A stretch of 64,000 nucleotides of DNA from Jeotgalibaca dankookensis. Its GTDB lineage: Bacteria; Bacillota; Bacilli; Lactobacillales; Aerococcaceae. Each line of letters opens with the position of its first letter. Positions within the stretch are counted from its first letter, which is position 1. The notes under the pieces are model-generated. The model saw only the letters and a list, made by a program, of their open reading frames with translations. It did not search any database and had not been told where the DNA came from. The stretch covers positions 1,240,001 to 1,304,000 of the forward strand of contig NZ_CP019728.1 of the NCBI RefSeq assembly GCF_002005405.1. The letters run 5' to 3'. This document shows, one piece after another, positions 53,979-57,983 of this stretch. A program made the translations under genes and the position numbers.

Positions 53979-54851
53979 TTACAGCTGATTCAGTTTCGTA
54001 TCGGCTTCTTCTAAACGTTGGCGTCGCTCAGTTGATTCTTGAAACATTTCTTCTAACTCACACCCATTCTCAGTTACAAGTGCGTGTTTCATCGCAACAA
54101 ACTGTTTTTCAAAATCAGCCATCGCGTTTAACAAAGCCTCTTTATTTTCTAAAAATAACTCGGTCCATAATGGGGCATTGATTTTAGCAATTCGCGTTAA
54201 ATCCCGATAGCTATCACCAACAAACGATGCCGTCTCTCTTTCAGGATGATCACTGTTTATTAGTGAAACTGCAATCGCATGGCAAAGTTGACTGGTGAAA
54301 GCAATCATTTCATCGTGCTTCTCAGGTGTAACGATGGAAATTCGTTTAAATCCTAATCGTTCAAAACGTTTTTTTACTTTCTCAATATTTGCCAGTTGGT
54401 TTTCCGGTCGGGGCGTGATGACATAGTTTGCACCTTGGAAAATAGCTCCATCTGCGTATGCGTAACCTTTACTTTCACGACCAGCCATCGGGTGACCAAA
54501 AATAAAATCAACTTGCTTGGGTAAACTTTTTTCCATGTTAGCCATCAGCGCGCCTTTTACTCCTGTTACATCCGTTAAAATCGCACCCTTTTTAAATTCA
54601 GACTTGTGGCTTTGTACGAAATTTTTTAAGGCTTCTGGATAAAGACAAATAATGACGAGATCAGCGCGTTGTAGAATGGTTTGGTTATGACTTTCGCCTT
54701 CCTCAATTACACCGTCCGCTAAGGCTTTATCTAGGGTTTCTTGGTCGCTGTCAATCGCTAATACACATTCATCAGAAAGCGGCTTCTGTTTTAAAGCTTT
54801 CGCAAACGAGCCGCCTACTACTCCTAAACCTACAATTGCTATTGTTGTCAT
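53979..54851 (-). CDS. tyrA: prephenate dehydrogenase
   Basis: 290 residues from ATG 54851, preceded by AAAGGGGGAAG; the longer frame to 54950 overlaps the transporter gene. NAD-binding GLGVVGGSFAKAL at the N-terminus, LTDVTGVKG, and the catalytic His in FGHPMAGRES. Oxidatively decarboxylates prephenate to 4-hydroxyphenylpyruvate for tyrosine. No ACT domain. Third gene of the pheA-transporter-tyrA operon. Confidence 0.93.
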   Translation of the reverse strand: MTTIAIVGLGVVGGSFAKALKQKPLSDECVLAIDSDQETLDKALADGVIEEGESHNQTILQRADLVIICLYPEALKNFVQSHKSEFKKGAILTDVTGVKGALMANMEKSLPKQVDFIFGHPMAGRESKGYAYADGAIFQGANYVITPRPENQLANIEKVKKRFERLGFKRISIVTPEKHDEMIAFTSQLCHAIAVSLINSDHPERETASFVGDSYRDLTRIAKINAPLWTELFLENKEALLNAMADFEKQFVAMKHALVTENGCELEEMFQESTERRQRLEEADTKLNQL

Positions 54852-54864
54852 CTGTCTTCCCCCT

Positions 54865-56130
54865 TTATGAGATACGAGATTCTTGTTCAATAATTTGAGG
54901 AAGGGGTTTATCCACCATACTGGCATCCCAAATACCTTCCGATTTCGCAATAATTAAATTTGCTTGAATATCACTTAACATATTTGTCGTTGTAAAGGCC
55001 ATGTCTAAAAGGCGATAAACAGCAGCAATAGGACCCATCAAAGCAAATGGTAATCCAACAATAGATAAATAAGTGGCCCCTAAGATTATTCCACCACCAG
55101 GAATACCAGGTGCTCCCATATTTAGTAACAATGAAACAAACATACCAAAGGCAATTTGTTGCCAAGATAAACTTAATCCATAGAAATCAGCAACGAATAC
55201 CGTTAAACAAGCAAAAGATACAGATCCTCCAACCATATGAATAGTCGTTCCTAAGGGTAAAATAAAGCGAGAAATTTCTTTAGGTACTTTAAAATGCCCT
55301 TCTCCTACTTGAATTGATGTCGGTAAACTTGCAGCTGAACTTGTAGTGGATAGCGTCATTAAAGAAATAGGATACATTCCTTTTAAAATCGTTAAAGGAC
55401 TGATTCCAGTAATGAGAACAGTTGGTAAAATAATAACGAGAATAATGACTACGAGGCAAGCAATATAAGCAGTCAGAATGTACATTCCTAAAGCTGAGAA
55501 TATCCCAGCGCCATATTGCGTTACCGCAACAGCCATCAAAGAGGCAACGCCTAACGGAGAAAACTCCATAATAATCCCTAAAACTTTAAACAGAACTTGG
55601 GAGAGGCTGTTCACGAAATCTTTTACGGGTTTAGCGGGTTCACCAACTGTAATGACTGCCATTCCGAACAAAGCGGTAAATAAAATAACTGCTAAAATAT
55701 TTCCCTCAGTCATAGCTAAAAGAATATTTTTAGGCACAATACTGGTCACAAAACCAATTAGTGATGGATTGGCAAGCTCGCCTTCAAAAACGGGAGCCGA
55801 TGCTAAGGAAACACCTCTTCCTGGACGAATTAATAAAGCAACGCCGTAAGCAATGAGCGAACTCACTATTAAATTAACAATAAAGAGGGCAACTGTTTTC
55901 ATACCCACTCGACCTAATTCACGGCCGTCCCGCATACTAATGATTCCGGTTGAAACAGATGCGAATATAATTGGAACAATCATCATCTGGATACCATTTA
56001 AATAAATTGTGCCTAAAAACTCTGTTGCTAATGCCAATCTCGGTGCAGCAATTCCAATAATAATTCCGAATACAAATCCTAAAGTAATTCGAATAAATAA
56101 GTATTTTTTTGACATTATCTTTTTCAACAT
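54865..56130 (-). CDS. DAACS-family cation symporter, probable aromatic amino acid carrier
   Basis: 421 residues with the glutamate-transporter fold. HP1 is normal (STTSSAASLP, 261-270). Two ligand-binding motifs are altered. The TM7 NMDGT motif is HMVGG (298-302; N, D and T lost, compared with GltPh 310-314). In TM8 the arginine that binds the substrate carboxylate (Arg397 in GltPh) is Phe379 in DMAFTTTN, while Asp387 is kept. This argues against dicarboxylates. The gene lies between pheA (gap 3) and tyrA (gap 13) on one strand, so a Phe/Tyr carrier is the natural guess. Ion coupling is likely unusual. Confidence 0.78.
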   Translation of the reverse strand: MLKKIMSKKYLFIRITLGFVFGIIIGIAAPRLALATEFLGTIYLNGIQMMIVPIIFASVSTGIISMRDGRELGRVGMKTVALFIVNLIVSSLIAYGVALLIRPGRGVSLASAPVFEGELANPSLIGFVTSIVPKNILLAMTEGNILAVILFTALFGMAVITVGEPAKPVKDFVNSLSQVLFKVLGIIMEFSPLGVASLMAVAVTQYGAGIFSALGMYILTAYIACLVVIILVIILPTVLITGISPLTILKGMYPISLMTLSTTSSAASLPTSIQVGEGHFKVPKEISRFILPLGTTIHMVGGSVSFACLTVFVADFYGLSLSWQQIAFGMFVSLLLNMGAPGIPGGGIILGATYLSIVGLPFALMGPIAAVYRLLDMAFTTTNMLSDIQANLIIAKSEGIWDASMVDKPLPQIIEQESRIS

Positions 56131-56133
56131 TAC

Positions 56134-56967
56134 TCATCCCTCTTTCTTTATTTCTACATCAAATTGTCCTAACAATTGAACGTATTCCGATACTTGTTGT
56201 AAGGTTTGCCATAATATTTCAAACGGCACTTGCATGCTTGCGATATTTAATTCAATAAAAAAACCATAAACAAATGACTTTCCGGATATGGGTCGGGCAT
56301 TTAAAGCTAGCAGGTTACAATCAAACAAATTAAAAACTTGTAATAACTTAGATAAGGCACCTGATTTATGACGGGTTTCAGCGTAGAGTGACAACTGATT
56401 ACCAGTTAAAACCGCGTTATCTTTATATTTCATCATGTAAAAGCGCGTGGTATTGCTGTTTTCTGTTTGAATTTGAGACTTTAAATCTTTTAATCCATAT
56501 AACTTACCGGCTCTCGGGCTTGCAATTGCCGCTTGGTTTGTATCCATTTTTTCTTTAATAAATAAAGCTGCCTTAGCGGTATCTTCGTAAGCTTTCGCTT
56601 CTAAATAAGGGTGAACTTTAAAAAAATGATCACATTGAGAGAGTGCTTCTGGATGCGAATAAACAGTTTGGATAGTTGATAGCTCACTTCCAGGTAATCC
56701 CCATAAAGTATGTTGAACGGACTCATAATGTTCAGCAGTAGCAACAATAGGTTGATAACGAAATAAATCAACTGATCGAGCGATAAGTCCTGTTGTCGAG
56801 TTCTCTACTGGAATGACAGCACAATCTAATTTTTTAGTCGCTAAATCATGAACCAAATCAGGAAAATTTGAATAACCAACCACGTCTAATTCTTCGGTTG
56901 CCTTGTATTGACTTTGAACAACCGTTTCACTATATGAACCGGGAATACCTTGATAACCTACTTTCAT
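56134..56967 (-). CDS. pheA: prephenate dehydratase
   Basis: 277 residues. Converts prephenate to phenylpyruvate. Catalytic region GYQGIPGSYSETVVQ and NTTRFYMM (TRF motif); C-terminal ACT domain for feedback control (HKSGALSKLLQVFNLFDCN, NARPISGKSFVYGFF). First gene of the operon; ATG 56967 after AAGGAGATG. Transcription must pass the attenuator at 56995-57032. Confidence 0.95.
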   Translation of the reverse strand: MKVGYQGIPGSYSETVVQSQYKATEELDVVGYSNFPDLVHDLATKKLDCAVIPVENSTTGLIARSVDLFRYQPIVATAEHYESVQHTLWGLPGSELSTIQTVYSHPEALSQCDHFFKVHPYLEAKAYEDTAKAALFIKEKMDTNQAAIASPRAGKLYGLKDLKSQIQTENSNTTRFYMMKYKDNAVLTGNQLSLYAETRHKSGALSKLLQVFNLFDCNLLALNARPISGKSFVYGFFIELNIASMQVPFEILWQTLQQVSEYVQLLGQFDVEIKKEG

Positions 56968-56994
56968 TCCATCATCTCCTTATATAATGATAAT

Positions 56995-57032
56995 AAAAAA
57001 GAAGCACCACTTAGTTTTCTAAGCGATGCCTC
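56995..57032 (-). terminator. attenuator terminator before pheA
   Basis: On the minus strand GAGGCATCGCTTAG (57019-57032) and CTAAGTGGTGCTTC (57001-57014) form a 14-pair stem with G-U pairs and an AAAA loop, followed by six U. It lies 28 bases upstream of the pheA start, inside the leader. Confidence 0.85.
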
Positions 57033-57039
57033 TTTTCTA

Positions 57040-57182
57040 AGTTCTTCAAAAGAACTATGAGAGTAGACTCATATTGACCGCTCAGTATTTCTAAGCGGCT
57101 GGAAAGACCATGAATAAGCCACTTTAGATATGAAAGTTCTTCACTGTTCATACCCAAAGTTTGAATACGAACTATCTAAAGT
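57040..57182 (-). promoter_or_regulatory. switchable leader structure of the pheA operon
   Basis: Six ordered segments (minus strand): 1 ACTTTAGATA (57173-57182), 2 TATCTAAAGTGG (57119-57130), 3 CCGCTTAG (57091-57098), 4 CTGAGCGG (57078-57085), then 5 TCGCTTAG (57019-57026) and 6 CTAAGTGG (57007-57014) in the terminator. Pairs 1:2, 3:4, 5:6 are possible, and equally 2:3, 4:5 leaving 6 free. A separate hairpin AGTTCTT-TTG-AAGAACT sits at 57040-57056. Segment 1 overlaps the last codons of the leader ORF, so a stalled ribosome would force the antitermination arrangement. Confidence 0.7.
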
Positions 57183-57225
57183 AGCGATAAAAAACAGATA
57201 GATGCGTTCGTTGCTTATTTAACAT
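57172..57225 (-). CDS. Phe/Tyr-rich leader peptide of the pheA operon
   Basis: 17 codons, MLNKQRTHLSVFYRYFR, ATG at 57225 with GAGGTC at good spacing; an in-frame ATG at 57241-57243 would add six residues. Four of the last six residues are aromatic (Phe-Tyr-Arg-Tyr-Phe-Arg), and these codons overlap the first arm of the leader stem. This is the layout of a ribosome-mediated attenuator like that of enterobacterial pheA. Confidence 0.7.
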   Translation of the reverse strand: MLNKQRTHLSVFYRYFR

Positions 57226-57257
57226 GTTCTGACCTCGTTTCATTTTTTATTCTCTCT

Positions 57258-57286
57258 ATCATAAATGATTAAGATTAAAATTACAA
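57258..57286 (-). promoter_or_regulatory. sigma-A promoter of the pheA operon
   Basis: On the minus strand TTGTAA (57281-57286), a 17-base spacer and TATGAT (57258-57263). The transcript would begin near 57250, just before the leader ORF, giving a leader of about 285 bases. Confidence 0.65.
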
Positions 57287-57308
57287 GTTTATTTTAATTT
57301 TTTTCTAA

Positions 57309-57983
57309 TCATTCTGTTAATTGCCAGTTTATCGGCTCTTTTCTTAATTGTTTTAAAGCATCATTCGTCTTTGAAAAAGGTTTAGATCCAAAGAAACCTC
57401 TCCTTGCCGAAAGAGGACTTGGATGGGGTGCAGTCAAAACAATATGTTTATCCGTATTAATCAGCGCTTTTTTTGCGATAGAAGCATTTCCCCATAAAAT
57501 AAAAATTACAGGGTCTTCCCGTTCATTTAAGCTATGAATGACTGCATCCGTTAGCTGCTCCCAACCCTTTTTCCGGTGTGAATAAGCTTGTCCTTTTCGA
57601 ACAGTCAAGACGGTATTTAAAAGAAGAACGCCTTGCTCTGCCCACTGGTTTAAATGTCCATGATGAACGGGTTTCACACCTAAATCACTTTCTAGCTCTT
57701 TATAAATGTTACGTAAGGAAGGTGGAATCGGCACGCCTTTTTGAACAGAAAAACTTAATCCATGAGCTTGGTTTGGTCCATGATAAGGATCTTGTCCGAG
57801 AATGACTACTTTAACATCTTTAAAGGGGGTTTTTTCAAAAGCAGTCCACAAGTTGTTCATACTTGGATAAATGATGTGATTACTGTACTCTTCTTTTAAA
57901 AAGTCTCTTAACTGAAGATAATAGTCTGATTGAAACTCTGATTCTAAAATATCTTGCCAGTCGTTTTTGATAAGCGTCTTCAT
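57309..57983 (-). CDS. ung: uracil-DNA glycosylase
   Basis: 224 residues, family 1. Motif A GQDPYHGPNQAHGLSFSV (catalytic Asp), LLLNTVLTVR and motif B HPSPLSARRGFFGSKPFS (catalytic His). Removes uracil from DNA. Start ATG 57983 with AAAAGGAGATG. Divergent from the Cof-type phosphatase, with an inverted repeat between the two. Confidence 0.97.
   Translation of the reverse strand: MKTLIKNDWQDILESEFQSDYYLQLRDFLKEEYSNHIIYPSMNNLWTAFEKTPFKDVKVVILGQDPYHGPNQAHGLSFSVQKGVPIPPSLRNIYKELESDLGVKPVHHGHLNQWAEQGVLLLNTVLTVRKGQAYSHRKKGWEQLTDAVIHSLNEREDPVIFILWGNASIAKKALINTDKHIVLTAPHPSPLSARRGFFGSKPFSKTNDALKQLRKEPINWQLTE

Follow-up and report, generated by a model that had tools for sequence, protein, structure and literature searches.

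Aromatic amino acid genes of lactic acid bacteria are usually expected to be controlled by T-boxes; the leader described here, which precedes the pheA gene of Jeotgalibaca dankookensis, offers a possible answer as to how they are regulated. The window analysed was a stretch of 64,000 nucleotides of this genome, and the order of the genome was taken as Lactobacillales. The conserved Phe and Tyr codons over the first pairing segment, the covarying alternative pairings, the terminator and the aromatic genes downstream together suggest that the leader is very probably a ribosome-mediated transcription attenuator sensing charged Phe- and Tyr-tRNA.

Organization of the pheA leader

The leader was confirmed on the minus strand, at 57286–56995 of the window, directly 5′ of pheA. 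Its parts and the genes behind it are as follows.

57258–57286, minus strand: promoter-like site TTGTAA-17-TATGAT, 9 of 12, weak alone
57232–57236, minus strand: Shine–Dalgarno-like GAGGT before the leader ORF, from sequence
57172–57225, minus strand: leader ORF, ATG at 57225, 17 codons plus TAG: MLNKQRTHLSVFYRYFR
57173–57189, minus strand: segment 1, codons Tyr-Arg-Tyr-Phe-Arg
57161–57172, minus strand: alpha, 5′ arm of the hairpin immediately 3′ of the stop codon; partner beta; alpha:beta has 10 of 13 pairs with two-sided change
57146–57158, minus strand: beta; partner alpha or gamma, from fold and covariation
57115–57133, minus strand: segment 2, its 5′ part being gamma; partners 1, beta or 3
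57090–57100, minus strand: segment 3; partner 2 or partner 4, and additionally 6 in the window copy
57076–57088, minus strand: segment 4; partners 3 or 5
57041–57073, minus strand: two small hairpins within the linker between segments 4 and 5; the linker differs in other pheA leaders, by eye
57018–57037, minus strand: segment 5, 5′ arm of the terminator
56995–57014, minus strand: segment 6, 3′ arm of the terminator and T run
56134–56967, minus strand: pheA, prephenate dehydratase (PF00800, 1.7e-50; below the NCBIfam equivalog cut-offs)
54865–56130, minus strand: SDF-family (dicarboxylate/amino acid:cation) symporter (PF00375)
53979–54950, minus strand: tyrA, prephenate dehydrogenase (PF02153, PF20463; below the NCBIfam cut-offs)

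The preliminary description had placed a 17-codon aromatic ORF with its own ribosome site and a terminator before pheA, with the aromatic codons overlapping segment 1. All of these elements were found in place: the ORF ends in V-F-Y-R-Y-F-R, the overlapping codons are the Tyr-Arg-Tyr-Phe-Arg codons of 57173–57189, and the terminator with its T run spans 57038–56995 on the minus strand, ahead of the pheA start at 56967. An additional in-frame ATG lies six codons 5′ of the ATG at 57225. A promoter had also been claimed, and the site is present but weak, since four sites of such quality occur in the 701-base region against 2.7 expected in the scan, which is about chance frequency. The gene order of pheA, symporter and tyrA was borne out by domain scans, with ung upstream. 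The SDF-family symporter lies within the pheA–tyrA operon, and a similar-looking symporter was seen 3′ of pheA in one locus outside the order (L174).

The absence of a T-box was likewise confirmed, as no Rfam family reached its cut-off anywhere in the window. The T-box family (RF00230) was rejected as the identity of the leader, having no match at its cut-off in the window and none up to E 5 in 56900–57400. The trpB ncRNA motif (RF04312) scored 18.8 in the window against a cut-off of 59.

Pairing in the window copy

The predicted duplex energies of the window copy were −17.9 (1:2), −13.0 (2:3), −15.3 (3:4), −12.3 (4:5) and −26.4 (5:6) kcal/mol. Shuffled partners were as good as the real ones in at most 5 of 1000 cases for 4:5 and in none for the other four neighbour pairs. 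Five non-neighbour pairs were tried in the window, of which 1:3, 1:4, 2:5 and 2:6 were unremarkable (78 to 678 of 1000 shuffles) and 3:6 stood out (−13.1 kcal/mol, 0 of 1000 shuffles). The fold of the window leader was 9.8 sd below dinucleotide shuffles. It had been proposed that the six segments pair in two exclusive orders, either 1:2, 3:4 and 5:6 or 2:3 and 4:5 with segment 6 free; these pairings exist, but the minimum-energy fold pairs segment 2 with beta, as beta:gamma, and not with segment 1.

Relation to Rfam family RF02863

In a permissive scan the window leader matched RF02863 (sRNA_2410, 'Enterococcus sRNA 2410') at 40.9 bits (E 2.3e-5), below the cut-off of 61, and the match covers the whole model (1–196) with the same segments alignable. 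Other pheA leaders scored 61.9 (L003), 58.0 (L006), 52.8 (L005) and 34.1 bits (L004). A second, stronger copy was found in the window genome outside the window (L062) at 72.9 bits, over the cut-off. At E ≤ 0.01, RF02863 was detected in 222 of the 395 genomes searched in the order, representing 57 of 80 genera; 98 were over the cut-off, and 0 of 14 control genomes had a match. A class-level search at E ≤ 0.001 gave matches in 35 of 398 genomes, five of these outside the order. The leader family is therefore wider than the window alone and widespread in lactic acid bacteria.

The RF02863 matches begin at the FSYFR codons, so that the leader ORF starts further upstream than the match does; some members also have their terminator past the match end. 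The Rfam type of the family is 'Gene; sRNA', and its name presumably derives from the sRNA_2410 of Enterococcus faecium, described as a 195-nt RNA with two transcripts on a Northern blot (PMC5593968). Given this sRNA listing and the start of the matches at the FSYFR codons, RF02863 was read as the same leader under another name. On this reading, the RNA listed as an Enterococcus sRNA acquires a likely function. As an independent explanation RF02863 was rejected, because its members share the leader ORF and the gene neighbours. The preliminary description had held that a match to a known Rfam family would count against it; RF02863 does match, below its cut-off, but as the same leader and not as a rival mechanism.

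The set used below comprised 135 hits, namely 130 of the 150 matches listed and the five pheA leaders, two of which are also among the 150. One genus in the set, g24, we infer to be Streptococcus.

Genes behind the leader

Among the matches listed, the next gene in the 135 hits was TrpX-like in 75, aroE in 45, DAHP synthase in 6, pheA in 5 and aroC in 1; the remaining three were followed by aroE behind a transposase, another solute-binding protein and a contig end. The names of the next-gene clusters come from NCBIfam scans of nine members, and three of the 45 aroE genes were named by eye, one of these being cut by the end of the fetched DNA. Of the 134 hits with a readable neighbour, again among the matches listed, 132 lay immediately 5′ of a co-directional gene that is TrpX-like or belongs to the aromatic pathway. 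One genome was read further, by eye, and carries aroE, DAHP synthase, aroB, aroC, tyrA, aroA, aroK and pheA in a row. On sequence grounds, the genes predicted to be regulated make or import the amino acid sensed.

A PheA match was present in 50 of 100 genomes, including that of the window, and 30 pheA loci were obtained. The leader motif was located at most 700 bases before pheA in five of these: the window's own locus, those of three relatives in the same genus (L003, L004, L006) and that of a relative in a different genus (L005). The other 25 of the 30 were read without a leader, which indicates that pheA lacking the leader is common in the family. No leader was seen by eye before a distant pheA (L002, 27 % identity), the sole pheA obtained from a scan of the genome contigs. 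The genome of L005 (G020) has two pheA copies, on L005 and contig 22, which are 60 and 52 % identical to that of the window; the first copy has the leader.

Outside the order, three genomes belonging to a single genus carry the leader ahead of DAHP synthase (names by eye), and two of these three have a weaker match (34.8 and 33.8 bits) before pheA, with a symporter next where that part was read. One further leader precedes a TrpX-like gene and one precedes transketolase and then DAHP synthase (by eye). A weak RF02863 match with IWYSYRR codons (L165 of genome G542, about 230–500; 37.1 bits) lies before a sodium:neurotransmitter-type symporter (PF00209), which suggests that this symporter is an aromatic amino acid importer.

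Two single loci differ in arrangement. The protein encoded behind the Phe/Tyr leader of L115 (G016) has three solute-binding stretches of family 3, the best family matches of which are for cystine or basic amino acids and fall below or near the cut-offs; the ligand of this protein may be Phe or Tyr. In L096 (G344) the leader is followed by a short ORF resembling the start of aroE and then by DAHP synthase, as if aroE had been lost from the head of the operon.

Conservation of the leader peptide

An in-frame start with a Shine–Dalgarno-like site was found before 129 of the 135 hits among the matches listed. The six misses were one truncated stretch and five leaders of g24 without such a site. 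The other four pheA leader ORFs each have 17 codons and end in YFSYFR. Codons were tallied over the 96 readable non-redundant leaders among the matches listed, L065 being excluded as its stretch starts at the hit, and the consensus of the leader end was (Y/F)(F/Y)-x-(Y/F)(F/Y). Within these 96, codons −1, 0, +2 and +3 were Phe or Tyr without exception at each position, with swaps between the two. The tallies were Y 45, F 36 and 15 others at −2; Y 88 and F 8 at −1; F 94 and Y 2 at 0; S 93, G 2 and R 1 (the window) at +1; Y 86 and F 10 at +2; F 93 and Y 3 at +3; and R 95 and G 1 at +4. Further upstream, LNN, LNT or LNK was present in 64 of the 96, with the Leu codon of this stretch being CTG in 42, TTG in 15, TTA in 5 and CTA in 4.

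Exceptions occurred outside the order, namely FFFSDFR (with Asp at +2, in two relatives), YFSYF without Arg, YYYFGWFS, and the IWYSYRR before the sodium-dependent transporter. The aromatic leader ORF is kept in related genomes, as had been anticipated, with its codons retained in the four other pheA leaders and in the wider family.

Conservation of the alternative pairings

Segments were found in 92 non-redundant leaders among the matches listed, which formed the structural set. Seven of the 135 hits were dropped, two without a recognized segment 2 (L065 and L091, the latter having one by eye) and five without an accepted hairpin (L040, L092, L123, L142 and L150). All five pairings were better than −5 kcal/mol in 92 of 92 leaders (4:5 in 91), and shuffled partners were far weaker. 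When partners were permuted within the TrpX-like class (47 leaders) and the aroE class (31 leaders), none of 1000 permutations equalled the cognate 2:3, 3:4, 4:5 or 5:6 in either class; the same held for 1:2 in the TrpX-like class, but in the aroE class 1:2 was not beyond permutation (82 of 1000).

Pair-by-pair counts cover 1:2, alpha:beta, beta:gamma and 2:3 and were made on an alignment, A1, of 89 of the 92 non-redundant rows (L063, L100 and L148 were left out). The controls ignore relatedness and the structures were derived from the same sequences, and counted in this way 1:2 with alpha:beta had 16 pairs with two-sided change against 6.6 when shuffled and at most 6 when slid. For beta:gamma there were 28 two-sided cells against 5.3 shuffled; its 6 two-sided pairs were reached by 10 of 500 shuffles, and its 17 further pair types by 107 of 500. 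The signal for 2:3 was modest, with 10 two-sided cells against 2.2 shuffled, 3 two-sided pairs (111 of 500 shuffles) and 11 further types (112 of 500). Phe replaced Tyr at +2 in nine rows of A1, in four of which segment 2 was one base short, as it was in one row with Tyr.

The covariation that the preliminary description had proposed to look for in relatives was thus observed: the segments change together, 2:3 least clearly, in counts that include relatedness. This covariation supports a predicted mutually exclusive terminator and antiterminator.

TrpX-family importers and leader specificity

For a comparison of TrpX-family binding proteins, 27 genomes were chosen from the leader carriers. Exactly two such proteins were present in 26 of the 27, one above the TrpX cut-off of 390 bits (397–480) and one below it (313–354); the exception, G404, has a single one at 383.7 bits. 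The weaker paralogue sits behind a Phe/Tyr leader in 26 of 26 genomes (25 by position, G096 by sequence). The stronger paralogue, the true trpX, is preceded by a T-box in five of five g24 genomes and, in all 21 loci elsewhere, by a short ORF containing W(Q/H/R)(S/N), a pattern that demands no Shine–Dalgarno site and that also matched one of the five g24 loci. Of the 21 loci, which carry Trp-codon leaders, five matched RF04312 above its cut-off.

A sister Trp-codon leader is found in the window genome itself (L201, region of G000:C1:843964): MSATVTINFMTFYWQSHME. Among this locus and L176–L200, such a leader, with similar hairpins by eye, lies before the true trpX in all 21 loci outside g24, and LNN also occurs in some of the Trp-codon sister leaders (L176, L177, L199 and L200). 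In L183, L184, L187 and L190 (g24) and in L189, L193 and L194, the T-box or Trp leader is separated from trpX by another very short ORF, which encodes Lys-Arg-Trp-Arg (for example MERKRWRRL or MEKKRWRMY) and is perhaps a further Trp-codon control step.

Gln at a published specificity site is described as marking the Trp-binding protein and Tyr as marking the Tyr- and Phe-binding ones (PMC6816091). In the corresponding column, Tyr was present in 75 of 75 TrpX-like proteins behind Phe/Tyr leaders (among the matches listed) and Gln in 26 of 26 paralogues behind a Trp leader or T-box, so that the leader codons track the ligand pocket. A second specificity site is occupied by Glu in the Tyr-binding protein, and there the 75 TrpX-like proteins (among the matches listed) had Ser in 69, Ala in 4 and Phe in 2; with no Glu, Tyr as against Phe is not indicated. 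Against solved structures, one paralogue behind a Phe/Tyr leader was closest to the Tyr-binding 6hni (248.8 bits, against 213.1 for 3lft), and one behind a Trp leader or T-box was closest to the Trp-binding 3lft (306 against 209.7 bits). In Streptococcus suis, TrpX is described as serving Trp uptake and as being controlled by a T-box (PMC9382623).

Two signs that are independent of each other, the leader codons and the pocket residue, divide the TrpX family into importers of a Phe/Tyr type and of a Trp type, which would allow annotations of 'tryptophan ABC transporter' to be corrected.

Proposed mechanism and modelled folding

When Phe or Tyr is short, the ribosome would stall at the aromatic codons and cover segment 1. 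The alpha:beta hairpin would then form as it is transcribed, and segment 2, left free, would pair with segment 3; with 2:3 in place, 4:5 would form and segment 6 would be left without a partner, allowing readthrough into pheA. When Phe and Tyr are ample, the ribosome would reach the stop codon and mask alpha, and beta would pair with gamma, the 5′ half of segment 2; alternatively, segment 1 would pair with segment 2 after ribosome release. Segment 2 would be sequestered either way, so that 3:4 and then 5:6 would form and transcription would terminate. Termination would release a leader of about 200 nt, which would correspond to the 'sRNA' of Enterococcus faecium. The alpha/beta/gamma switch could in this way distinguish stalling of the ribosome from its arrival at the stop codon, and the leader offers a compact natural test of how that distinction is made. 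We infer that the ribosome would stall, that alpha:beta would persist and that the polymerase would read through.

The modelled transcripts end before segment 6, and the model sketches thermodynamics and not kinetics. When segment 1 was masked and alpha:beta was locked, at least five expected pairs were obtained for 2:3 in 78 of 92 leaders and for 4:5 in 78 of 92; five expected pairs were reached in 18 and 33 of 92, respectively, as free RNA, and in 7 and 34 of 92 with the ribosome at the stop codon. Without the alpha:beta lock, the stalled state raised 4:5 in 36 of 92 leaders and lowered it in 9. The locked model was devised after this unlocked result and is a model choice, not an independent test. 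Even with the lock the window copy barely switches, with 1.5 expected pairs for 2:3 and 1.3 for 4:5, and L003, L004 and the second copy of the window genome (L062) also switch only slightly; switching in these copies would need the co-transcriptional order of folding. The fold with segment 1 masked, as suggested in the preliminary description, favoured 2:3 and 4:5 across most leaders when locked, but barely in the window copy. Equilibrium folding was rejected as proof of switching, the unlocked 36 up and 9 down of 92 being insufficient for it.

Alternative explanations

TnaC is an example of nascent-peptide arrest that responds to a free amino acid, and a comparable arrest of the ribosome by the QLNN-YFSYFR peptide, on free amino acid and not on tRNA shortage, would account for the conservation of residues that are not aromatic: among the matches listed, Ser is kept in 93 and Arg in 95 of 96 leaders, LNN, LNT or LNK recurs in 64 of 96 with Leu encoded by varied codons, and LNN appears in some Trp leaders. 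The Ser and Arg codons, however, are part of segment 1, so that pairing may account for their conservation; Phe and Tyr replace each other at several positions, and the window leader and its four pheA relatives are without QLNN. Biosynthetic genes would moreover require arrest at low amino acid, and nascent-peptide sensing is considered unlikely. The codon-level pattern, together with the overlap of the ORF with segment 1, is left unexplained if a protein (TRAP-like, or a streptococcal 'PCE' factor) or a small molecule binds the leader and the ORF is mere by-play. Such binding would fit the strong conserved hairpin structure and a regulatory motif proposed in 2003 before aromatic genes in Streptococcus and Lactococcus; Panina et al. 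reportedly treated aromatic regulation in low-GC Gram-positives in that year and named the 'PCE' motif in streptococci. Direct binding appears the least probable of the explanations weighed here.

The Rfam type 'Gene; sRNA' and the detected 195-nt RNA (PMC5593968) are what would be expected of a trans-acting small RNA, for which the position before aromatic genes would be incidental. That position is nevertheless directly before a same-direction aromatic-pathway or TrpX-like gene in 132 of 134 hits among the matches listed, with one more behind a transposase, and both the leader ORF and the terminator are kept, making a dedicated trans-acting RNA very improbable. A leader released by attenuation could still act in trans as a by-product.

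With attenuation by a translating ribosome as the preferred reading, a broader one is put forward tentatively, as somewhat less likely to hold than to fail. One leader design of the Bacilli may have been re-used for all aromatic amino acids, its Phe/Tyr form serving aroE operons, DAHP synthase, pheA and an ABC importer for Phe/Tyr, its Trp form serving the true trpX, and the codons and the transporter pocket changing together. The alpha/beta/gamma switch would read the ribosome position twice, at sense codons and at the stop codon, ahead of the two-step relay, and LNN may add a nascent-chain input.

Comparison with known systems

The his leader of Escherichia coli and Salmonella pairs as A:B, C:D and E:F or as B:C and D:E, a relay through two antiterminator steps. 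The leader described here resembles it in having six segments in two exclusive chains with the first segment covered by the ribosome, and differs in its Phe/Tyr codons, its occurrence in Bacilli, its aromatic genes and the extra alpha/beta/gamma switch; the likeness drawn here is one of mechanism. The preliminary description had regarded a two-step relay of this kind as unreported, which is not supported, the scheme being that of the his leader. The E. coli pheA leader combines a Phe-rich leader peptide and a terminator with a simple two-state pairing. It is like the present leader in placing such a peptide and a terminator before pheA, and unlike it in that Tyr codons and the relay are found here. 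The anatomy of RF04312 is similar to that of the window leader by eye, and its loci carry Trp codons.

Leader-peptide attenuation in Firmicutes is also in print (PMC5794164, PMC9413887, PMC8632094), which likewise counts against the claim of an unreported system. No Phe/Tyr attenuator of lactic acid bacteria was found among the matches listed in the open-licence literature, by titles and the starts of abstracts, which is a weak negative. T-boxes are described for pheS of Streptococcus pneumoniae (PMC6212727) and for the his genes of Lactobacillales (PMC9413887). The uORFC-13-1 motif of Acholeplasma aroF, with 24 representatives, is a predicted Phe-codon uORF with a terminator before DAHP synthase (PMC8632094); unlike the window leader it belongs to another lineage, and the available part of that source describes no relay. 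The ilv leader of Staphylococcus aureus is described as working by leader-peptide attenuation, with predictions cited for branched-chain genes of Lactococcus and Streptococcus (PMC5794164), and his attenuators are described in the Bacillus cereus group, Eubacteriales and Erysipelotrichales (PMC9413887). As these sources present them, the S. aureus ilv and Firmicute his attenuators serve other amino acids, unlike the window leader with its Phe and Tyr codons.
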